IMG/VR virus record: IMGVR_UViG_3300022072_000001
Coordinates: 1-46,931 of that record
Length of the DNA stretch: 46,931 bases
Reading direction: 5' to 3' (one strand)
DNA from: a virus
Both the position numbers and the translations under genes were made by a program. Numbering within the stretch: the stretch's first letter is position 1; each line of letters opens with the position of its first letter. Of this stretch, positions 1 to 46,931 are shown in pieces. The notes under the pieces are model-generated. The model was not told the origin of the DNA and made no database searches. It worked only from the letters and a program-made list of their open reading frames with translations.

Positions 1-245
1 TTTGAAGGACTAGACAAATCTACCCAAGCCGTTCCGTTGTACCCTTCAAATACGTTTGACAAATATCGAATAGTACCCGCATTGGTATTGGCTGTTGTGC
101 CTATCCGAATAGCTCCGTTTACGTCAAGCCGCTCGGTCGGACTAGTGCCGCCGATATGTAATTGACTATTAGCATCCACCCTAAGTTGAGCCAAAGAAAT
201 TTGCATATATGCAAAAAATAAAACCCCTAATAATATCTTTTTCAT
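1..245 (-). CDS. Tail fibre with S74 domain, 5' part only (duplicate copy)
   Basis: The start codon is at 245 and the frame runs off the left edge after about 81 codons. It is the same sequence as the first part of the complete gene at 43652-45061. It begins with a signal peptide (MKKILLGVLFFAYMQISLAQ) followed by a T-E-R-L-D-V-N-G motif common at the start of bacteroidetal fibre proteins. It lies 11 bases downstream of the long fibre gene, so on the circular map the two are consecutive in one operon. See the complete copy for function. Confidence 0.9.
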   Translation of the reverse strand, partial: MKKILLGVLFFAYMQISLAQLRVDANSQLHIGGTSPTERLDVNGAIRIGTTANTNAGTIRYLSNVFEGYNGTAWVDLSSPS

Positions 246-2115
246 GTTAATTTGATTTATAATTTTATTCTAACATCTGTCCCTATTCTGTATAGGGAAA
301 ATTGTAATAAGTCAGTATCCGCAATTGCTGCGGCCTCATTTGCGTAATTTTCTAATTCTGCTATAACGTTTGTTTTTCCGTTGACTTGTTTGACGTTTAA
401 TTCTGCAAATCCATTAGCAATATTTGCGGTATGTAATAGTTTAGCTCCATCTTCTTCTATGGTAACAGAACCAAGTATTCCGCTTTTTCCGTAGATTAAA
501 TTCGATTGCGTATTAGTGAATTGAAGGTTACTAGTTGCACCATTGCTTAGATTATTCTGTAAGCTCCAAGTTCCTGTATTAGTGTGAGATGGGTTTGCGC
601 TTCCTGTCAAATTAGTACTAAGCATGTTGGTTTTGTTTGTTGTAATCGTCAACAAACTAGGATTGCTAGAATCTAAATTAAAATCCGTTGAATTAAATCT
701 AATTATAGCGTCATTTATTAGCGTGAAATTAAGATTTCCTGTTTCTTGAAATATTACTCCAGTAATACCATCAGCGCCTGCTGGCCCTTGTGGACCTTCT
801 GGACCTTGTGGACCTTGCTGACCTGGTGCTCCTACATTACTATTTATATTAGATAGTGCTGTATTCAAATCGTTATTTCCTGCCGTGGTGGGGTCTGTAA
901 CGGTTACATCTGTACCTAAGATTTTTTCAAATTCGACTTGTCCAAATGTAGTTATATTTTTCATAAATCCGCCCACATTCGTACCACTGGCTGGCTGAAT
1001 ATTTACTGTACCGCCTTCCCCATCTATTAAAATACTGCCTCCTGCTGTTGCTGCAATTCCTATATCTTTTGCTTGCACCGTGAATGCGCTACCTGTACCA
1101 CTAGAAGCAAACCAAAGCCCTTTATTATAGTAACTATATATTCTAGTACTTCCATTTGCGCCCGTTTGTGTTTGGTTGGCGCTTGCTAAGTTGTTTATAG
1201 TAGGCTTATTTGTTAAATCTGTATAACTACCAGAAAACAGACTAGGCTTGTTCAAAACCAAGGCATCCCCTGTAGTGGCATCCCAATCCGCATTTACATT
1301 GACCTCCGCACCTGTGGCAATTCCCGCCAATTTTGTAGCATCCGCACTTGGATAGGTATTCTTTGCCGTGTTCGCCGTTATTGCGCTTGCTTGTCCTGCT
1401 GTGATTGTCGTAGGCTTTCCTGAAACATTTGCCCATGTAGGGGCTATAACAGCATTAAATTCTGTTAATGAAATTTTCTTTTCTTCTGTAGCATCAGCAT
1501 ACACAAAATAAGAGGTACTTATAGGAGTGTCATCCGTGGGCAATTCTGCAAAATTCAAATAAAGTTCTGTATTTATTGCCTCTAAATCTAAACCTAATCC
1601 AGTTGTAATAAGATTGTTTATTGTAGGCTTATTTATTAAGTCTGTATAACTACCAGAAAACAGACTAGGTAAATTTGAAAGTGAATTATAGTTACCATCA
1701 AACAGACTAGGTAAATTTGAAAGTGAATTATAGTTACCATCAAACAAACTAGGTTTATTTAGTATAAAAGCATCACCTGTGGTAGCATCCCAATCAGACT
1801 GCACATTGACTTCAGCGCCTGCCTCAATCCCTGCCAGCTTGGAAGCATCTGCACTTGGGTAGGTATTCTTTGCCGTGTTCGCTGTGATTTCATTGGCTTG
1901 TCCTGCTGTGATGGTTGTAGGCTTATTCAAAATCAAAGCATCACCTGTGGTAGCATCCCAATCAGACTGCACATTGACTTCAGCGCCTGCCTCAATCCCT
2001 GCCAGCTTGGAAGCATCTGCACTTGGGTAGGTATTCTTTGCCGTGTTCGCTGTGATTTCATTGGCTTGTCCTGCTGTGATGGTTGTAGGCTTATTCAAAA
2101 TCAAAGCATCACCTG
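1..2115. repeat. Terminal direct repeat, left copy
   Basis: The sequence from base 1 matches 44817-46931 with a constant offset of 44,816, wherever I compared it, up to the last base of the window. It covers the start of the S74 fibre gene, most of the long fibre gene and about one and a half of its 168-bp repeats. This means a circular or circularly permuted genome reported with overlapping ends, or a real direct terminal repeat. The sequence alone cannot separate these; the end falling inside tandem repeats favours an assembly overlap. Confidence 0.95.
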
Positions 2116-8849: not shown

Positions 8850-9053
8850 TTGCACAATAATTTTATATAGGATGGGTTTTTTATGCCCATAATGAAGATT
8901 TTGCAAGCAAAGATATAACTGCGGCAGTCAGAGAGGAAGGGATTAATTACCCCGACTGAGACTGACACCTTAACTTGCAAAGTACCTCGTGTACCTATAT
9001 GGTTATTGTGCAACGACCGCAGTTTCTTTTTTCACTTAAAAGCACAATAACCA
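8850..9053 (+). promoter_or_regulatory. Structured leader RNA region of antirepressor gene
   Basis: No gene is supported in 8739-9053; it holds a dense set of inverted repeats. ATGGG 8872-8876 pairs with CCCAT 8886-8890. TTTGCAAG 8900-8907 pairs with CTTGCAAA 8974-8981. CAGTC 8925-8929 pairs with GACTG 8954-8958, extended inward by GGG 8939-8941 with CCC 8950-8953. AACTGCGG 8917-8924 pairs with CCGCAGTT 9017-9024. GGTTATTGTGC 9001-9011 pairs with GCACAATAACC 9042-9052, ending one base before the ATG at 9054. The AACTGCGG/CCGCAGTT pair interleaves with the others and would form a kissing or pseudoknotted arrangement. Function as a translational switch is inferred. Confidence 0.55.
8908..8915 (-). 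promoter_or_regulatory. Possible leftward promoter -7 element
   Basis: CAAAGATA reads TATCTTTG on the minus strand, identical to the rightward element at 8840-8847 and facing it. It could serve the tail-tip operon starting at 8738. No TTG is found about 20 bases upstream, so support is weak. Confidence 0.3.
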
Positions 9054-9707
9054 ATGCAAGAAGTATTAAATCAACTCGTACCAATTCGGGAAACAAAAAT
9101 TGGTAAAGCTTCCCAAAAGTGCGTATCTGCACGTGAATTACATTCCTTTTTAGAAGTTAAGACAAAGTTCATAACTTGGATTAAACGGTTAATTGAAAAA
9201 TATCAATTTACTGAAAATCAGCACTTTGTGACGTTTTCCCAAAATAGGGAAAACGGTGGAAAGAAATATTTCTACGCCCTTACCCTCTCCATGGCAAAAG
9301 AATTGTCCATGGTCCAGAACAACAAACAGGGTCAACAAGCTCGCCAATACTTCATCCAATGCGAAGCCAAACTTCAAAAATCGAATGAGGCTGTTTTAAA
9401 GATGGCACAAGACCCAATTATTGCTATGCGATTGGCACAAATTGAGATTAAAGAGCGATTAACCTTATTGGAAGCCAAGACCACTACGCGCCCCGATTAT
9501 TTCACCGTGGCAGGATATGGCACTTTGCAAGGCATCAAAGTAGGTATTAAGTTGGCTGCTAATTTAGGAAGGAAAGCTTCTGCAATCTGTAAGAAGAAAG
9601 GCTTTCCTATAGACAAAGTGCCTGACCCTAGATTTGGTGAAGTAGGTTCTTATCCTAAATCTGTCCTAATTGAAGTTTTCCAATCTCTTAACGCTCAAAA
9701 CGCCTAA
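9054..9707 (+). CDS. AntA/AntB-type phage antirepressor protein
   Basis: 217 residues. Residues about 10-110 show the AntA/AntB antirepressor pattern: V-S-A-R-E-L-H-S-F-L-E-V-K-T-K-F, then W-I-K-R-L-I-E-K-Y-Q-F, then Y-A-L-T-L-S-M-A-K-E-L-S-M-V-Q-N and A-R-Q-Y-F-I-Q-C-E. The C-terminal half (residues 120-217) is a separate helical domain with a lysine-rich L-G-R-K-A-S-A-I-C-K-K-K-G-F-P-I-D motif, possibly DNA binding. Antirepressors bind and inactivate phage repressors. It is on the strand opposite to the surrounding late genes. The hairpin 9001-9052 abuts its start codon. Confidence 0.85.
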   Translation: MQEVLNQLVPIRETKIGKASQKCVSARELHSFLEVKTKFITWIKRLIEKYQFTENQHFVTFSQNRENGGKKYFYALTLSMAKELSMVQNNKQGQQARQYFIQCEAKLQKSNEAVLKMAQDPIIAMRLAQIEIKERLTLLEAKTTTRPDYFTVAGYGTLQGIKVGIKLAANLGRKASAICKKKGFPIDKVPDPRFGEVGSYPKSVLIEVFQSLNAQNA

Positions 9708-26701: not shown

Positions 26702-26727
26702 GCGTCATTTTTTTTAAGTATCAAAAA

Positions 26728-26757
26728 CCCTCTTTACTTAATTACAAGTAAAGAGGG
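26728..26757 (-). terminator. Terminator upstream of integrase gene
   Basis: CCCTCTTTACTT (26728-26739) pairs perfectly with AAGTAAAGAGGG (26746-26757). On the minus strand it is followed by TTTTTG. It ends transcription from the repeat-protein operon before the recombinase gene, so the integrase would need its own promoter, which I do not see clearly in 26702-26727. Confidence 0.85.
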
Positions 26758-26763
26758 TAGGGG

Positions 26764-26997
26764 TTAATCTCTAGCCTTTTCTAATCGCTTTAGTTTACTG
26801 TTATAAACTACCTGGCAAAAAATAGTGCAATCTTCTTCCATTACTAAAGTTGTATGTTTTTTTGTTTCTAAGACACTAGTGCCTTTAATGTCGAAAGTTT
26901 CGTTAATTTCATCTAACATAACGACTTTAGTTGCTCCTTTTACAAAATGTCCTGCTTCGCTTGTTGGTGCTACGTTTACGGTTAATACTGTATTCAT
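26764..26997 (-). CDS. Small hypothetical protein
   Basis: 77 residues, beta-type (N-T-V-L-T-V-N-V-A-P; T-K-V-V-M-L-D-E-I-N; H-T-T-L-V-M-E-E-D-C-T-I-F-C-Q-V-V) with a basic end. Starts 26 bases after the tetrapeptide-repeat gene and ends just before a strong terminator, so these two form a unit. Not recognised. Confidence 0.6.
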   Translation of the reverse strand: MNTVLTVNVAPTSEAGHFVKGATKVVMLDEINETFDIKGTSVLETKKHTTLVMEEDCTIFCQVVYNSKLKRLEKARD

Positions 26998-27023: not shown

Positions 27024-28745
27024 TTAATATTCGTACTCCATTAATTCAAAATATTCTTTTCCTCTGACTGGTTTTAAATCCTGCCAATCACTTTCTTTTA
27101 ATGTGTTTTTTATTTCCTTTCCTTCGATTGTCCAAACAATTGAAAACCTTTCACCTTGTCGGCGAATTGATTTAATGTGACTTTTTAGCTTGGTTGGGAT
27201 TCTAAGAAGCGAAGCAATTGCATTTTTTGCATCGTTGTAATGTGGCTCAACTTCTAAGTGAAAAACCCTATCTGTTGAGGGACAAAAACAACGAACATAC
27301 TTCATTTTTTCAGTAGCAAAAAGGGTATAAACGCCTATTTGTTCGCTCCCTGTCGTTCCCTCTAAATACTTACTATCTTTTTTATTAATGTAAGTATCTA
27401 TTTTTTTCGCTCCTAAAAATTCAAGTAAATAAGATGGCCCGTAACATTCTTCAATCATCATTATTATGGCGCTCTTTTTTTCTTCGTTGTTTTCTGTGCT
27501 GTACTGTATGAGGGTATAGGTTTTGTTTTTAATCGACTCCCAGACCTTTTTTTCTAGTTTCACCCCATTACTATAATACATATTATACCCCCCTTGGAAT
27601 TGTATAGCCGCCTGACTTATACTGTGCAAACTGGTTTCGTTTCTGGTTATCTTAGTTGGCGTTTTTAAAACTAAAACATACCCCTTTGTAAAAAAACAGC
27701 GACTAATAAAAGTTTTATTAATTAAGCTATATAAGCAATCTAATTCTTTAGCTTTTTTTGTTTCTAGCTTAAATTCATCTTTTAGAAATTTATACCACAT
27801 TAAATAAACTCTGGTATAAATATTAGATAAAAACAACCAATGTGACCTAGTTTTTCCCCTGTCCAACTCCCTGCGCAATTCGCTGTCCAACTCCCTGTGC
27901 AATTCGCTGCTCAATTCCCTGTCCAATTCGCTATTCAATTCCCTGTCCAATTCGCTATTCAATTCCCTGACCAATTCCCTGTCCAATTCGCTATTGAATT
28001 CCCTGTCCAATTCGCTGTGCAATTCCCTGCGCAATTCCCTGTCCAATTCCCTGCGCAATTCCCTGTCCAATTCCCTGTCCAATTCCCTGTCCAATTCGCT
28101 GACCAATTCGCTGACCAATTCCCTGTCCAATTCGCTATTCAATTCCCTGTCCAATTCGCTGTGCAATTCGCTATTGAATTCCCTGTCCAATTCGCTGACC
28201 AATTCCCTGTCCAATTCGCTATTCAATTCCCTGTCCAATTCGCTATTCAATTCCCTGTCCAATTCGCTGTGCAATTCGCTATTGAATTCCCTGTCCAATT
28301 CGCTGTGCAATTCCCTGCGCAATTCCCTGCGCAATTCCCTGTCCAATTCCCTGTCCAATTCCCTGTCCAACTCCCTGCTCAATTCCCTGTCCAATTCCCT
28401 GACCAAATCGCTGTGCAATTCGCTGCGCAATTCGCTGCTCAATTCGCTGTGCAATTCGCTGTGCAACAATACGGACCTATTTTTTTTACCGTAGATAAAT
28501 TTAATTGTCTTTTCTTTCCTTTTAACACACTCAAAAAACACCTTATAAGCATAAGGATTTTTTGCTATAATAACGGCGGGTTTTTTTAATCCTGCTATTT
28601 CGTATATTTTCTCGATGTACTTTACTGTGTCGCTTCGCTTATTGGTTTTGTGTTCTTCGCCGTTATAAAGGTTTTTTGTGGCCAATTCTTTATAAGCTGG
28701 AATTTTCGCCCGAATTGCGGGCGTTAAGTCTTTTAAAGTTTTCAT
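27024..28745 (-). CDS. Tetrapeptide-repeat protein (DUF6745-like ends)
   Basis: 573 residues. Residues 1-95 form a basic helical head. Residues about 96-295 are some 50 consecutive tetrapeptides of the form S/R-E-L-x (E-L-D-R, E-L-N-S, E-L-R-R, E-L-H-S), with no gap. Residues 300-573 form a globular domain containing V-R-C-F-C-P-S-T-D-R-V-F-H-L-E-V-E-P-H and, near the end, K-E-Y-F-E-L-M-E-Y. Bacterial proteins with four-residue repeats in the middle and a P-S-T-G-R-x-Y-x-L-x-V-P-P type ending are, from memory, the DUF6745 group of unknown function. The repeat would form a long charged helix or coil. Confidence 0.7.
   Translation of the reverse strand: MKTLKDLTPAIRAKIPAYKELATKNLYNGEEHKTNKRSDTVKYIEKIYEIAGLKKPAVIIAKNPYAYKVFFECVKRKEKTIKFIYGKKNRSVLLHSELHSELSSELRSELHSDLVRELDRELSRELDRELDRELDRELRRELRRELHSELDREFNSELHSELDRELNSELDRELNSELDRELVSELDREFNSELHSELDRELNSELDRELVSELVSELDRELDRELDRELRRELDRELRRELHSELDREFNSELDRELVRELNSELDRELNSELDRELSSELHRELDSELRRELDRGKTRSHWLFLSNIYTRVYLMWYKFLKDEFKLETKKAKELDCLYSLINKTFISRCFFTKGYVLVLKTPTKITRNETSLHSISQAAIQFQGGYNMYYSNGVKLEKKVWESIKNKTYTLIQYSTENNEEKKSAIIMMIEECYGPSYLLEFLGAKKIDTYINKKDSKYLEGTTGSEQIGVYTLFATEKMKYVRCFCPSTDRVFHLEVEPHYNDAKNAIASLLRIPTKLKSHIKSIRRQGERFSIVWTIEGKEIKNTLKESDWQDLKPVRGKEYFELMEYEY
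27861..28460 (-). repeat. 12-bp minisatellite, about 50 copies
   Basis: Tandem 12-base units (CAATTCCCTGTC and variants on the plus strand) encode the tetrapeptide array. Variation is nearly limited to two positions (CCCTG/CGCTG and GTC/ACC/TGC/ATT/CGC). The array is free of stops in several frames on both strands, which creates long false reading frames on the plus strand (27897-28589, 27994-28494). Confidence 0.95.
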
Positions 28746-29084
28746 GAAAAAATTTTATAAGTATTAAAAAAGTATCACTTAATTTTTAAAGTATCTCTAA
28801 TTTGAATCTAAAATTACTCTAAAAATATTCAAATACATAATTAAATTACTTTTTTTTGATTAAATATTAAATATATTGAATCTGTGATAGTTCTGTGATA
28901 CCTACAACAAAAAGAAAGAAAAAAGAGCGTAAACCCTTGATTTCATTGGGTTTATGTGAGTGTTTGAAAGGCTTGGATTAATGTAAAGTATCACCAAAGT
29001 ACAATATTAAGGCTTTTTGTGATAGTTTTAAGCCTACTTAAAACATACTAACTAAATAAGCAGTAAAAGTAAGGGAAAAATAAA
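28746..29084. promoter_or_regulatory. Gene-free stretch with repeated GTGATA sites
   Basis: No reading frame is supported. The 7-mer GTGATAC/GTGATAG occurs five times in both orientations: GTATCAC 28772-28778, GTGATAG 28884-28890, GTGATAC 28895-28901, GTATCAC 28988-28994 and GTGATAG 29019-29025. A weak hairpin TAAACCC 28930-28936 / GGGTTTA 28948-28954 lies between. This looks like a multi-site binding region upstream of the tetrapeptide-repeat gene. I find no consensus promoter in it. Confidence 0.5.
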
Positions 29085-29126
29085 TTGGGGGTAACTTTGG
29101 TTAAATTTTATCCAAGTCACCCCCAA
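29085..29126 (-). terminator. Terminator after early small-gene operon
   Basis: TTGGGGGTaACTT (29085-29097) pairs with AAGTcACCCCCAA (29114-29126), 12 bp with one mismatch; the minus strand continues with TTTATTTTT. It lies 18 bases after the stop of the gene at 29144. Confidence 0.8.
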
Positions 29127-29143
29127 CTTTATTCAAATAAGTT

Positions 29144-29347
29144 TTATTCCTTTTGTTGTGGTAAATCTTTATACCTTTTTCTTTTCCATACATCAAAATG
29201 ATTTTCTATATACATAGTAAGCGCCAAATCTTTTGAATTTTCTCGTATGTTAGCTTTATGGTATAAATACATGAAATACCTATCTGGTATATTCTTTAGC
29301 TTCACCCCCTCATGTTTTCCAAAATACATAATACTGTCATCGTGCAT
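29144..29347 (-). CDS. DUF3820-like small protein
   Basis: 67 residues: M-Y-F-G-K-H-E-G-V-K-L-K-N-I-P-D-R-Y-F-M-Y-L-Y matches the core of DUF3820 (M-P-F-G-K-x-K-G-x-x-L-x-D-I-P-x-x-Y-L-x-W-L), often found next to nucleases. Last gene of its operon. Function unknown in the family. Confidence 0.7.
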   Translation of the reverse strand: MHDDSIMYFGKHEGVKLKNIPDRYFMYLYHKANIRENSKDLALTMYIENHFDVWKRKRYKDLPQQKE

Positions 29348-29358
29348 AAGTTTAGTTT

Positions 29359-33393: not shown

Positions 33394-34170
33394 TTATGTT
33401 TTTATTAATTTCTGGTATTGTAGTTGGCAATAAGTTTTGAAATCTGTTTTAGGTTTTTCTGAATCAAAATCTTTTTTCCATTGCTTTTTTATCAATTCAT
33501 CATTAAACAAGTTTTCAAAAGTTGGCTTTTCTTTAGGTTCTTTTGGTTTTAATTCGCCAATAAATTCCCTTATATATTCAGGCATAGGTATTGCTTTTTC
33601 TGCCCTCTCTATTTGTCTTTGGTTTTTGGCGTTCTGCTGCATAGCATACTGAGACCTTTGCCCCCTGTATTTATTTAACCATTCTAAAAGCGTTGGAACG
33701 TCAAAACGGTTGTAAGTTGTCCCAAACTCTCCTTTGATAGCTTTTTTCCCAAATAGGGTAAAATCTGCTATAGTGAAATAAAAAAAATCTTCAATTATTA
33801 ATTCGGCTGCAACCTCTAACTGATTTTCTTCAATGCCCCCTTTGACCGCAAAAAACCTACTTAATTGCAAAATCCAATTAGTTAGCCATAATTGGGTCAT
33901 TCCCTCTCCCCTGTATTTTTTCATTGTGGCAATTGTTGCAACCTCTTTAGAGTTGATGGAATCGTTAAAATTTTTAGCAACTATTTTATTTTGACCTACT
34001 TGATAAGCTAAAAGGGCTTTACTTTCTTCATAGATTCCTTTCGCTGCTAATTGTTTGGCTATACCCTGACAGTTTTGGAAGTCTGGTAACTTAGAATACT
34101 TTTCCAAAAATCTGCTCACGGACTGCTGCCTTTTTTGGGTCAAATTGATGACCATTTTTTTCTTTTCCAT
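33394..34170 (-). CDS. Replication-region protein, unknown (DUF6633-like)
   Basis: 258 residues, or 253 from the second ATG at 34155. The segment F-F-Y-F-T-I-A-D-F-T-L-F-G-K-K-A-I-K-G-E-F-G and Y-N-R-F-D-V-P-T-L-L-E-W-L is, from memory, like the DUF6633 group that sits next to replisome organisers in bacteroidetal phages; a helicase-loading role has not been shown. No P-loop. Its start overlaps the initiator gene by 80 bases in another frame, more than usual. Confidence 0.6.
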   Translation of the reverse strand: MEKKKMVINLTQKRQQSVSRFLEKYSKLPDFQNCQGIAKQLAAKGIYEESKALLAYQVGQNKIVAKNFNDSINSKEVATIATMKKYRGEGMTQLWLTNWILQLSRFFAVKGGIEENQLEVAAELIIEDFFYFTIADFTLFGKKAIKGEFGTTYNRFDVPTLLEWLNKYRGQRSQYAMQQNAKNQRQIERAEKAIPMPEYIREFIGELKPKEPKEKPTFENLFNDELIKKQWKKDFDSEKPKTDFKTYCQLQYQKLIKT

Positions 34171-35014
34171 TTTCTTGATTTAAAAGTTTAGGATTTTTAG
34201 CAACTTTTTTTGCTTCCTGTTCATAGTCGTAAAATTTTGACCCAAACAGGGTTTTTATAGTGAGGTTCGTTTCATATTTTTTGCCAGTCCATTGTTTTAT
34301 TTTCAAATCAATCACATTTTTCATGCTCTGCACTTCAGTTCCCCCTATAATTAAATCATGTATTTTTCTGGCCACATTGGCATTAAGTGGATAGGTTGCC
34401 CCTGTTGCTTCATTCAGATACATTAGGACCTCTTTTGCTTTGCTCCATTCAGATACTTTTTCTTTTTTTAAGTCTGCTTTTAATTTTTCAATTTGAGAAA
34501 GATTTTCCTTTTCTCTTATTGTATTATTAATTGTATTATTATCTGTATTATTAATACTTGTATTATTATCATCATCATTTTCTAAATACCCCCCTTTAAT
34601 ATTCTCACTACCCCCTTTAATATTCTCACTAGGTTGTTTAGAATACTTACTACCCCCTTTAATATTCTCACTAGGTTGTTTAGAATACTTACTACCCCCT
34701 TTAATATTCTCACTAGGTTGTTTAGAATACTTACTACCCCTATTTAATATTTTAACTACCCTTTTTATGATTTGATTCCCTTGCCTTTCTATTCTGATTT
34801 TAACGTATTTTTTTGCTTCTAAAGATTTAATTATTTGTGTGCATCTGCCTTTAGATACACCAAAGAAATCAGAAAAATATTTATTAGATGCAAAGCATCC
34901 ATTATCATTATCTAAGCTGTCTATTTCTACTAAAAATATCTTTTCTATTAATGTTAGGTCTTTATTCAACCAAATTTCTTTAGGAATCCAAACACCCTTA
35001 AAACTTCTTTTCAT
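34091..35014 (-). CDS. Replication initiator / replisome organiser
   Basis: 307 residues from ATG 35014 (M-K-R-S-F-K-G-V-W-I-P-K-E-I-W-L); in-frame ATG 35116 gives an unconvincing extension. N-terminal winged helix: L-T-L-I-E-K-I-F-L-V-E-I-D-S-L, then G-C-F-A-S-N-K-Y-F-S-D-F-F-G-V-S-K-G-R-C-T, then L-E-A-K-K-Y-V-K. Residues about 95-155 are three copies of G-S-K-Y-S-K-Q-P-S-E-N-I-K-G. The C-terminal domain (residues 190-270) fits the phage C-terminal pattern TIGR02220 (Y-L-N-E-A-T-G-A-T-Y, V-I-D-L-K-I-K-Q-W, L-F-G-S-K-F). Such proteins bind the origin and recruit helicase. Confidence 0.85.
   Translation of the reverse strand: MKRSFKGVWIPKEIWLNKDLTLIEKIFLVEIDSLDNDNGCFASNKYFSDFFGVSKGRCTQIIKSLEAKKYVKIRIERQGNQIIKRVVKILNRGSKYSKQPSENIKGGSKYSKQPSENIKGGSKYSKQPSENIKGGSENIKGGYLENDDDNNTSINNTDNNTINNTIREKENLSQIEKLKADLKKEKVSEWSKAKEVLMYLNEATGATYPLNANVARKIHDLIIGGTEVQSMKNVIDLKIKQWTGKKYETNLTIKTLFGSKFYDYEQEAKKVAKNPKLLNQENGKEKNGHQFDPKKAAVREQIFGKVF
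34611..34736 (-). repeat. Three 42-bp tandem repeats in initiator gene: candidate origin
   Basis: Exact 42-base units start at 34611, 34653 and 34695; a 22-base partial unit precedes them (34589-34610). They include CCCCCTTTAATATTCTCACT and GGTTGTTTAGAATACTTACT. Iterated sites within the linker of an initiator gene are the usual form of origin in lambdoid and other temperate phages, so this is a candidate origin (inference). Confidence 0.6.
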
Positions 35015-35175
35015 TTTTGTGTAGTTTATTACTCTCTTTAGGCACTTAGAAAGCGATTGATTAATAAAATTACTGTCCTGCTTCTGCGCTCCAATCCAAT
35101 AAAAAGAGGTTGACAAAAGACCAAAAAACTAATATTGAAAATAGTGTCATTTTAATGTATTTTAGACTGTGAAAA

Positions 35176-43651: not shown

Positions 43652-45061
43652 TTATTTTCTTTTTTTTAACTTTTTAATGTCTTTTTGTAGTTGTTCAATT
43701 TGTGCCTGTTGGGCTTTCATTGCACCAATAAGCGGTGCAACTAATTGCGTATAATCCACGCCTAAAAATCCGTTTACGGGGTCAATGATTGATACCACTT
43801 GCGGAAAATGTTCTTTTACGTTTTGCGCAATAACGCCTAATTGAGTGCGCCCTTTTCCGTCTGCTTTCATTTTGAAAGAAACGGGGTTTATTTTTAATAT
43901 TTTTTCTAAGCTATTTTTAAGGGGTTCTATGTCTTTTTTTAGTCTACTATCTGAAACGTCTGTTAATGTTCCTGTGTATTCTATATCTCCCGTTATGGTT
44001 AGCGTATTGGTCGAAAAATCACCCCCTATCAAGGGCGTTGAGGTACTAGAATTGTCTATATATAGCTTGTCGCTGCCTGTCTCGTTATACCCTGCTTGGT
44101 GTCCTATAAATACATTATCGCTACCTGTTATATTACTATACCCTGCTTGTCTGCCGAAAAATGTATTTTTTTCGCCTGTCGTGTTCGCTATGCCTGTATT
44201 TTTCCCTATAAAAGTATTGTAGTTTCCTGTCGTGATTGCCGTTCCTGCCAATACGCCAAAAACGGTATTATCTGATAATTCATTATTCCCTTTGCCTATG
44301 TCGATGCTGCTTATTAAGGCATCACCGTTTACGTCTAATAGGGCAACTGGTGTTGTTGTGCCTATGCCTACATTACCCAAAGTATATAGATTACTGCCGC
44401 TTTCTAACCATTGCCCTAATTCCGATAAATTTCTCCATTTTGTGCCCGTAATAGTTGAAGTCAATATTTGTCCAATAGAACCTGTTGAAACAAAACTATC
44501 ATAAAACCCTCCTGTTAGTCTAAAGTCGCCTTGAATATGAAAATCAGTTGTGGGGGAGAGTGTATTAACGCCAAAGTTTCCCAAAGAGTGATTGAAAAAT
44601 AAATAAGAATTAATTGGGATTGCTGCTGCTCCTTGCACCCTTGTTGCAATAGCAAAGTTTTGTTCACTGTCTCCTATTACAATTCCATCTATTGCACTTG
44701 AACGCTGAAAACGCATCCTAGAACCGCCATCTTGTATTTGAAAGGCTGTAGCTGGTGCTCCGCCTATTCCGACCTTACCCGTATTGAAATAAATATTATT
44801 ACCTGTTCGTGTCCATTTTGAAGGACTAGACAAATCTACCCAAGCCGTTCCGTTGTACCCTTCAAATACGTTTGACAAATATCGAATAGTACCCGCATTG
44901 GTATTGGCTGTTGTGCCTATCCGAATAGCTCCGTTTACGTCAAGCCGCTCGGTCGGACTAGTGCCGCCGATATGTAATTGACTATTAGCATCCACCCTAA
45001 GTTGAGCCAAAGAAATTTGCATATATGCAAAAAATAAAACCCCTAATAATATCTTTTTCAT
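43652..45061 (-). CDS. Tail fibre/spike with C-terminal S74 chaperone domain
   Basis: 469 residues. Signal peptide 1-20 ending S-L-A-Q. Residues 30-50 have S-P-T-E-R-L-D-V-N-G-A-I-R-I-G, and again L-L-D-V-N-G-D near 240. Residues 250-330 are G-N-Y-N-T-F-I-G, G-E-K-N-T-F-F-G, S-D-N-V-F-I-G repeats as in beta-helical fibres. Residues about 370-469 are the intramolecular chaperone (peptidase S74) domain: S-D-S-R-L-K-K-D-I-E-P-L, the cleavage-site Ser, L-G-V-I-A-Q-N-V and V-D-Y-T-Q-L-V-A-P-L-I-G-A. The domain helps trimer folding and then cuts itself off. Confidence 0.85.
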   Translation of the reverse strand: MKKILLGVLFFAYMQISLAQLRVDANSQLHIGGTSPTERLDVNGAIRIGTTANTNAGTIRYLSNVFEGYNGTAWVDLSSPSKWTRTGNNIYFNTGKVGIGGAPATAFQIQDGGSRMRFQRSSAIDGIVIGDSEQNFAIATRVQGAAAIPINSYLFFNHSLGNFGVNTLSPTTDFHIQGDFRLTGGFYDSFVSTGSIGQILTSTITGTKWRNLSELGQWLESGSNLYTLGNVGIGTTTPVALLDVNGDALISSIDIGKGNNELSDNTVFGVLAGTAITTGNYNTFIGKNTGIANTTGEKNTFFGRQAGYSNITGSDNVFIGHQAGYNETGSDKLYIDNSSTSTPLIGGDFSTNTLTITGDIEYTGTLTDVSDSRLKKDIEPLKNSLEKILKINPVSFKMKADGKGRTQLGVIAQNVKEHFPQVVSIIDPVNGFLGVDYTQLVAPLIGAMKAQQAQIEQLQKDIKKLKKRK

Positions 45062-46931
45062 GTTAATTTGATTTATAATTTTATTCTAACATCTGTCCCT
45101 ATTCTGTATAGGGAAAATTGTAATAAGTCAGTATCCGCAATTGCTGCGGCCTCATTTGCGTAATTTTCTAATTCTGCTATAACGTTTGTTTTTCCGTTGA
45201 CTTGTTTGACGTTTAATTCTGCAAATCCATTAGCAATATTTGCGGTATGTAATAGTTTAGCTCCATCTTCTTCTATGGTAACAGAACCAAGTATTCCGCT
45301 TTTTCCGTAGATTAAATTCGATTGCGTATTAGTGAATTGAAGGTTACTAGTTGCACCATTGCTTAGATTATTCTGTAAGCTCCAAGTTCCTGTATTAGTG
45401 TGAGATGGGTTTGCGCTTCCTGTCAAATTAGTACTAAGCATGTTGGTTTTGTTTGTTGTAATCGTCAACAAACTAGGATTGCTAGAATCTAAATTAAAAT
45501 CCGTTGAATTAAATCTAATTATAGCGTCATTTATTAGCGTGAAATTAAGATTTCCTGTTTCTTGAAATATTACTCCAGTAATACCATCAGCGCCTGCTGG
45601 CCCTTGTGGACCTTCTGGACCTTGTGGACCTTGCTGACCTGGTGCTCCTACATTACTATTTATATTAGATAGTGCTGTATTCAAATCGTTATTTCCTGCC
45701 GTGGTGGGGTCTGTAACGGTTACATCTGTACCTAAGATTTTTTCAAATTCGACTTGTCCAAATGTAGTTATATTTTTCATAAATCCGCCCACATTCGTAC
45801 CACTGGCTGGCTGAATATTTACTGTACCGCCTTCCCCATCTATTAAAATACTGCCTCCTGCTGTTGCTGCAATTCCTATATCTTTTGCTTGCACCGTGAA
45901 TGCGCTACCTGTACCACTAGAAGCAAACCAAAGCCCTTTATTATAGTAACTATATATTCTAGTACTTCCATTTGCGCCCGTTTGTGTTTGGTTGGCGCTT
46001 GCTAAGTTGTTTATAGTAGGCTTATTTGTTAAATCTGTATAACTACCAGAAAACAGACTAGGCTTGTTCAAAACCAAGGCATCCCCTGTAGTGGCATCCC
46101 AATCCGCATTTACATTGACCTCCGCACCTGTGGCAATTCCCGCCAATTTTGTAGCATCCGCACTTGGATAGGTATTCTTTGCCGTGTTCGCCGTTATTGC
46201 GCTTGCTTGTCCTGCTGTGATTGTCGTAGGCTTTCCTGAAACATTTGCCCATGTAGGGGCTATAACAGCATTAAATTCTGTTAATGAAATTTTCTTTTCT
46301 TCTGTAGCATCAGCATACACAAAATAAGAGGTACTTATAGGAGTGTCATCCGTGGGCAATTCTGCAAAATTCAAATAAAGTTCTGTATTTATTGCCTCTA
46401 AATCTAAACCTAATCCAGTTGTAATAAGATTGTTTATTGTAGGCTTATTTATTAAGTCTGTATAACTACCAGAAAACAGACTAGGTAAATTTGAAAGTGA
46501 ATTATAGTTACCATCAAACAGACTAGGTAAATTTGAAAGTGAATTATAGTTACCATCAAACAAACTAGGTTTATTTAGTATAAAAGCATCACCTGTGGTA
46601 GCATCCCAATCAGACTGCACATTGACTTCAGCGCCTGCCTCAATCCCTGCCAGCTTGGAAGCATCTGCACTTGGGTAGGTATTCTTTGCCGTGTTCGCTG
46701 TGATTTCATTGGCTTGTCCTGCTGTGATGGTTGTAGGCTTATTCAAAATCAAAGCATCACCTGTGGTAGCATCCCAATCAGACTGCACATTGACTTCAGC
46801 GCCTGCCTCAATCCCTGCCAGCTTGGAAGCATCTGCACTTGGGTAGGTATTCTTTGCCGTGTTCGCTGTGATTTCATTGGCTTGTCCTGCTGTGATGGTT
46901 GTAGGCTTATTCAAAATCAAAGCATCACCTG
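44817..46931. repeat. Terminal direct repeat, right copy
   Basis: Identical, wherever compared, to bases 1-2115. It ends at the window edge within the third 168-bp unit of the long fibre gene, so the true limit of the repeat cannot be seen. Confidence 0.95.
45073..46931 (-). CDS. Long tail fibre protein, 3' part (duplicate copy, 5' end cut off)
   Basis: The frame runs in from the right edge and stops at 45073. It reproduces the C-terminal 619 or so residues of the fibre at 257-2914: last 56-residue modules, collagen-like triplets, and the ending L-Y-R-I-G-T-D-V-R-I-K-L. The start, signal peptide and some repeat units are missing because the window ends. Not a second gene. Confidence 0.9.
   Translation of the reverse strand, partial: GDALILNKPTTITAGQANEITANTAKNTYPSADASKLAGIEAGAEVNVQSDWDATTGDALILNKPTTITAGQANEITANTAKNTYPSADASKLAGIEAGAEVNVQSDWDATTGDAFILNKPSLFDGNYNSLSNLPSLFDGNYNSLSNLPSLFSGSYTDLINKPTINNLITTGLGLDLEAINTELYLNFAELPTDDTPISTSYFVYADATEEKKISLTEFNAVIAPTWANVSGKPTTITAGQASAITANTAKNTYPSADATKLAGIATGAEVNVNADWDATTGDALVLNKPSLFSGSYTDLTNKPTINNLASANQTQTGANGSTRIYSYYNKGLWFASSGTGSAFTVQAKDIGIAATAGGSILIDGEGGTVNIQPASGTNVGGFMKNITTFGQVEFEKILGTDVTVTDPTTAGNNDLNTALSNINSNVGAPGQQGPQGPEGPQGPAGADGITGVIFQETGNLNFTLINDAIIRFNSTDFNLDSSNPSLLTITTNKTNMLSTNLTGSANPSHTNTGTWSLQNNLSNGATSNLQFTNTQSNLIYGKSGILGSVTIEEDGAKLLHTANIANGFAELNVKQVNGKTNVIAELENYANEAAAIADTDLLQFSLYRIGTDVRIKL

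Follow-up and report, generated by a model that had tools for sequence, protein, structure and literature searches.

The window, a 46,931-nucleotide stretch that makes up the whole of IMG/VR virus record IMGVR_UViG_3300022072_000001, encodes a protein (gene A) in which a long tetrapeptide array lies between a conserved head and a tail homologous to the DUF6745 family. Comparison with relatives suggests that A and a small adjoining gene (gene B) form a two-gene module distributed across phages and bacteria, and that the array is a trait of the A relatives as a family. Our preferred reading, to which we assign a probability of about 0.4, takes the array for an exposed rod, used in recognition or as a scaffold, in which a single residue of each tetrad varies and which is carried on a conserved core of DUF6745 and B. 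An earlier note, made from the sequence of this DNA, had singled out the array; it did not cover gene B, the single hypervariable codon of each unit or the occurrence of arrays throughout the family.

Gene A and its surroundings in the window

The first and last 2115 bases of the window (1-2115 and 44817-46931) form an exact terminal repeat, and the window is therefore probably one circular phage genome of ~44.8 kb with redundant ends. A PHROGs scan of nine window proteins identified terminase, tape-measure, virion structural and integrase genes. The gene at 257-2914 is partly duplicated at 45073-46920; its predicted fibre-like product contains another expandable array, encoded by a 168-bp tandem repeat (1767-2512; 4.4 copies, 97% matches). 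A 42-bp tandem repeat (34607-34758; 3.6 copies, 96%) within the open reading frame (ORF) at 34091-35116 encodes GGSKYSKQPSENIK-type repeats. Gene A and its surroundings comprise the following features.

28746-29358, minus strand: non-coding region upstream of A, presumed promoter region (gap in the gene map)
27024-28745, minus strand: gene A, 573 aa from an ATG start, consisting of head, tetrapeptide array and DUF6745-like tail (ORF translation)
28464-28745, minus strand: head, aa 1-94 (MKTLxDLTPEIxAKIPxY...), conserved in relatives with and without an array and modelled as globular
27864-28463, minus strand: array, 50 x 12 bp, tetrads x-[R/S]-E-L, aa 95-294 (repeat analysis; low-confidence helix model)
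27024-27863, minus strand: tail, aa 295-573, divergent DUF6745 domain (profile comparison)
26764-26997, minus strand: gene B, 77-aa partner protein with an all-beta model, 26 bp downstream of A
26727-26758, minus strand: terminator-like hairpin, 14 pairs plus a T run, directly after B (hairpin search)

Two descriptions in the earlier note, a tetrapeptide of about 50 copies encoded by a 12-bp minisatellite and an uninterrupted array of 200 residues, agree with the repeat analysis: there are 50 tetrads in perfect register, with no break from aa 95 to 294. Position x is D, H, N, R, V or S and position 2 is R or S, followed by E and then by L (replaced by F three times and by D once). Hydrophobic residues recur every four positions in a run of 51 (aa 94-294), a length reached in 0 of 2000 shuffles, while the longest run at period 5 is 4. 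At the DNA level, the array matches itself at a lag of 12 nt with a score of 0.81, compared with 0.08 to 0.09 at lags 9 and 15, and is detected by Tandem Repeats Finder (scores 667-714). It is strongly acidic (net charge -36 over 200 aa) and occurs identically in other IMG/VR contigs. ORFs on the plus strand across the array were rejected as by-products of a stop-free repeat.

The earlier note had also portrayed A as a stand-alone gene with a 340-bp regulatory region and a terminator of its own, and here the gene map disagrees. The non-coding stretch 5' of the A start measures ~613 bp, and the sole terminator-like hairpin sits behind B. Because B begins only 26 bp after A and a hairpin is found only behind B, the two genes probably share an A-B operon, and A would not form a unit by itself. 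The number of terminator-like hairpins (1, against a shuffle mean of 1.4) was not above expectation, and promoter-like matches (5, against 9.3 expected from shuffles) were below it.

AlphaFold modelled the head (pLDDT ~90) and tail of A as confidently globular. Structure prediction of the array, a check that the earlier note had proposed, yielded helices at low confidence (pLDDT ~40-78). A heptad coiled coil and a pentapeptide solenoid were both rejected as misfits with the strict period of 4. This period is a property of the protein and not merely of the minisatellite, since it is kept in relatives that lack a strong DNA repeat: L026 and members from Nostoc and Aulosira, in which the 12-nt repeat between head and tail is weak (self-match 0.31-0.51), have 10 (p=0.0025), 11 (p=0.001) and 13 (p=0.0005) consecutive period-4 hydrophobics, respectively.

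Relatives, the DUF6745 domain and the partner gene

Relatives were gathered stepwise from viral contigs, and cellular homologues were taken from plasmid records; scans of genome contigs found no relatives. As the earlier note had supposed, conserved ends flank an expandable array: relatives keep the head and tail, and the number of units between them, the comparison it had recommended, ranges from 0 to ~58 with no obvious rule. Units differ by member (SQLD, NQVR, SSLD, ANLR, GDQL and others), and all have L, V or I at every fourth residue. Examples include L007, which is ~43-45% identical to window A and carries an SSLx array; gp38 of the Mycobacterium abscessus prophage prophiGD102-1, with 47 units; siphovirus cta39025, with 30; and a Nocardia farcinica plasmid gene (frame-shifted in the record) with head, QVxxQV array and tail. 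Three jumbo phages (L012-L014) encode head and tail without an array, and one of them carries a second gene (L016) with an NQV-type array. The array is likewise missing from L022, L035, L045 and the Microcystis phages, and the core thus works, or persists, without it. Free-standing tetrad mini-proteins are encoded near array-less A genes (L075 6403-6675 and ~8975-9281; L045 5169-5390 and 5558-5780), which suggests that an array is able to act in trans.

Several relatives have been rearranged. In L075 (4143-4682), and also in L035, A is split near its C terminus by ~750 bp containing an endonuclease-like ORF, which suggests an intron or homing element; an Rfam search returned no intron match. 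In one jumbo phage (L014 5747-6676), A and B are separated by an ORF judged by eye to be homing-endonuclease-like. In L065 (4498-4938), a large in-frame loss has fused the head with the end portion of the tail, and B is intact.

The DUF6745-like ending described in the earlier note is a weak match when the window tail alone is compared with the Pfam model (PF20530; 16 bits, E=0.0079, under the gathering cut-off of 27 bits) and a strong one in profile-profile comparison, in which a profile of window-type tails aligned with cellular DUF6745 proteins over 148 columns (hhalign 98.7%, E=2.6e-16). Two relatives with the same arrangement of head, array and tail score above the Pfam cut-off (L016, 31.9 bits; L041, 28.4 bits). 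The profile comparison and these intermediates argue that the tail is homologous to DUF6745 and that A is a divergent member of that family. The tail contains an invariant CPST motif (aa 488-491).

Other identities were rejected. Searches of the whole protein against Pfam, PHROGs, PADLOC and NCBIfam gave matches to Minor_tail_Z, DUF445, MSCRAMM and a type I specificity subunit, all inside the array and compositional; the Pfam and PHROGs matches vanish when the head and tail ends alone are searched, and PADLOC gave no reliable match, that to the type I specificity subunit falling inside the array. Neither the tail nor cellular B had a significant match when their sequences were searched against the PDB, and Foldseek comparison of A and of B with the PDB found nothing at E<=0.001. 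As the earlier note stated, the architecture as a whole has no known function.

Gene B encodes invariant histidines (H17 and H48), and its window version is modelled as all-beta (AlphaFold, pLDDT 73). Among viral structure models, B had one match, to an uncharacterised 97-aa phage protein (E=7.8e-4). Of 35 phage-type loci, 34 have B next to A in the same orientation, a count that includes near-copies of one phage, among them three of the window's own; the two genes are usually no more than ~120 bp apart, and at the exception (L086) A runs off the contig. A scan with B alone found further loci, with A present wherever flanking DNA exists; in the two cases with B only, the gene is located inside the locus's first 140 bases. 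A B-like ORF that had not been annotated follows the array gene of siphovirus cta39025. An unannotated B-like gene is present in public phage record MW202476 (L101 4561-4932).

Genes annotated as DUF6745 on plasmids of Methylobacterium, Deinococcus, Streptomyces and Skermanella are directly preceded on their 5' side by a B-like gene. The order is A-B in most phages, whereas cells, the Mycobacterium prophage and the Microcystis phages have B-A; the linkage is kept. The link between short, window-type B and long phage B is moderate (73.6%, E=2.9e-5) and that between long phage B and cellular B is strong (97.7%, E=1.4e-12); in direct profile comparison, short and cellular B were not significantly similar and are connected only through long B. 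Compared with the cellular B profile, gp37 of the Mycobacterium prophage gave a match of E=1.4e-12. Together, these observations support the view of A and B as one module; the partnership with B as a feature of DUF6745 is proposed in this analysis and is not in the Pfam definition. The genes STM4011-4015 adjoin B-A in five plasmid records (Methylobacterium, two Deinococcus and two Streptomyces). These B-DUF6745 pairs (L052, L090-L092, L097) are on plasmids from three phyla.

Codon pattern and explanations for the array

Within an array, codons other than x are near-identical even at synonymous sites, in a codon set particular to that array (e.g., TCA CAA CTG in L027, AGC CAA CTG in L028, TCG CAG TTG in L034 and TCA CAG CTA in L084). 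In the prophiGD102-1 array, the Q and L codons are identical in 45 of 45 cases and x is G, R or W. The alphabet at x recurs across arrays (D/Y/R/G/S/N or R/G/W/E), with hardly any Cys or Pro. Variation at x falls mostly in the first two codon bases, with an array-specific third base and mostly A or G at the second.

Counting as recurrent any variant codon seen at least two times in an array, we found 63 non-synonymous variants and 1 synonymous variant in 18 arrays, where 24% would be expected to be synonymous (p=4e-7, an approximate value because related arrays are not fully independent). Forty-nine of the 63 fall in one codon, and the sole synonymous variant (GAG) is in the window array. Pairwise pN/pS for the window array is 0.88, a measure that over-counts spread variants. 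In close pairs, the head, tail and B show dN of 0.10-0.20 against dS of at least 1.6 or saturated, and dN/dS is <0.15 wherever dS can be estimated, which points to purifying selection on all three. No difference separates L030 from L032 in the sequenced tail, and all 12 of their ungapped mismatches lie inside the array, where one two-unit indel accounts for them (unit strings compared by eye). Judging from these patterns, arrays appear to have been repeatedly expanded and homogenised, and one codon per unit re-diversified. A local mutation bias could also produce the excess at the x codon.

If the array is a recognition rod, the head, tail and B would provide a constant core, and one hydrophobic residue per tetrad would give regular backbone packing along an extended rod. 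The single variable residue, x, would be exposed on its surface. The rod would be repeatedly expanded and homogenised, with selection re-diversifying x. From this combination of rebuilding and re-diversification, we infer that the array binds, or must escape binding by, a fast-changing partner, for instance a factor of the host or of a rival phage; an arms race would then be under way, and A and B would act jointly. Points against this reading are the low confidence of the array model, the pN/pS of only 0.88 and the one recurrent synonymous variant of the window array, the relatives that lack an array, the distortion of array length that metagenomic assembly can cause and the possible mutation bias. 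A role in defence or counter-defence is possible.

The main rival is that the array is an inert interdomain linker, helical or flexible, whose length shifts by replication slippage and whose x residue is merely unconstrained. The lack of an obvious length rule fits such a spacer, as do the single two-unit indel between the L030 and L032 arrays and the helix in the array model; relaxed constraint, however, fails to explain a 63:1 ratio of non-synonymous to synonymous recurrent variants or the appearance of the same restricted x alphabet on different synonymous backgrounds, and free-standing mini-arrays cannot be spacers. On the codon analysis, we judge an inert linker less likely than a recognition rod and on the whole rather unlikely. 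We consider it more unlikely again that the array is a decoy or inhibitor, in which many copies of a short motif soak up or mimic a host component as a counter-defence and length sets avidity. Several phages do carry A near replication, recombination or methyltransferase-like genes (roles partly read by eye), and the acidity of the window array would suit DNA mimicry, but SQL, NQV and SSL-type arrays are not acidic, so such mimicry is not general, and the module is also found on bacterial plasmids beside STM4011-4015 genes.

Variation at x might instead be generated by targeted hypermutation, a diversity-generating process acting in addition to selection. The repeated concentration of changes at bases one and two of a single codon, whose third base is array-specific, would suit this idea, as would the similar NGG alphabet of the unrelated Tweety gp54; the preponderance of A or G at the second base of x, however, differs from the all-base pattern of adenine-directed retroelements, and variation to all bases at template adenines, the mark of a diversity-generating retroelement, was not found at the x codons. 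We regard hypermutation as improbable. Very improbable, in our estimate, is a role for the tetrads as repeated core units of a substrate modified by enzymes such as the STM4011 and STM4012 radical SAM proteins: STM4011-4015 adjoin B-A on the plasmids listed above, but the A proteins next to this cellular cluster lack a tetrad array. Least probable of all is an artefact of assembling a tandem repeat from short reads. Metagenomic assembly can distort array length, several contigs stop inside the array, and metagenomic copy numbers may be wrong; nevertheless, the window array is identical in other IMG/VR contigs, and arrays of the same design are present in the M. abscessus prophage record (the 47-unit array) and in the Nocardia plasmid.

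Relation to known systems

To our knowledge, phage tetrapeptide-array genes have been on record since 2007 with no function assigned. The family described here offers a tractable handle on them, with a conserved partner gene, a clear design rule (in each tetrad one hydrophobic is fixed and one residue varies) and isolate genomes in which it occurs (Microcystis phages, the M. abscessus prophage, and Streptomyces and Deinococcus plasmids). Should the array serve as a surface for recognition, its unit would be unusually short for a repeat scaffold, and its diversity would be built in. It is conceivable, though on balance doubtful, that tetrad-array DUF6745 proteins constitute a modular recognition system of phages and bacteria, in which a scaffold of four-residue repeats with a hypervariable x in every unit, renewed by tandem expansion and diversified again by selection, is combined with a constant effector pair of DUF6745 and B.

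Tetrapeptide-array phage proteins (Tweety gp54; PMC2884959) and DUF6745 as a catalogued domain were already known. In the open-licence papers searched, neither the A-B module, nor the array as a feature of DUF6745, nor repeated rebuilding of arrays around one hypervariable codon was described, and there was no mention of DUF6745 and nothing useful on the function of the STM401x cluster. Tweety gp54, Che8 gp57 and PMC gp51 have 12-bp repeats encoding tetrapeptide arrays of 48, 26 and 15 copies, respectively, between conserved ends; in this family, which has no known function, variation is mostly non-synonymous and third bases are invariant (PMC2884959). Window A shares with it an in-frame 12-bp repeat, a tetrapeptide array and non-synonymous variation, whereas the gp54 unit, A-A-[GWQ]-[SY], contains no L, V or I. 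Tweety gp54 and gp55 were rejected as homologues, as neither matched the profiles of the A tail, A head or B. A second, unrelated phage protein in the style of gp54, with an Ala-rich 12-bp repeat (NAADAAANAA), is encoded at L038 3242-3919.

Pentapeptide-repeat proteins are built from an A[D/N]LXX unit. The tetrads resemble it in having a short unit with one hydrophobic residue and N, D or S, and ANLR-type arrays look like pentapeptides minus one residue; window A, in contrast, is strictly of period 4, not 5, and has no Pfam pentapeptide match. With DUF6745 (PF20530), A shares tail homology and the CPST motif, and bacterial members also adjoin gene B, whereas the Pfam model covers the tail only and describes neither array nor B. 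Leucine-rich repeats (LRRs) are a classical binding scaffold. Deinococcus and Methylobacterium plasmids encode DUF6745 proteins with an LRR-type N terminus in the place corresponding to the array, and these are alike in that a repeat scaffold precedes the shared C-terminal domain and B is adjacent; they differ in that their repeats, as read from the sequence, are LRR-like units of ~20 residues rather than tetrads.
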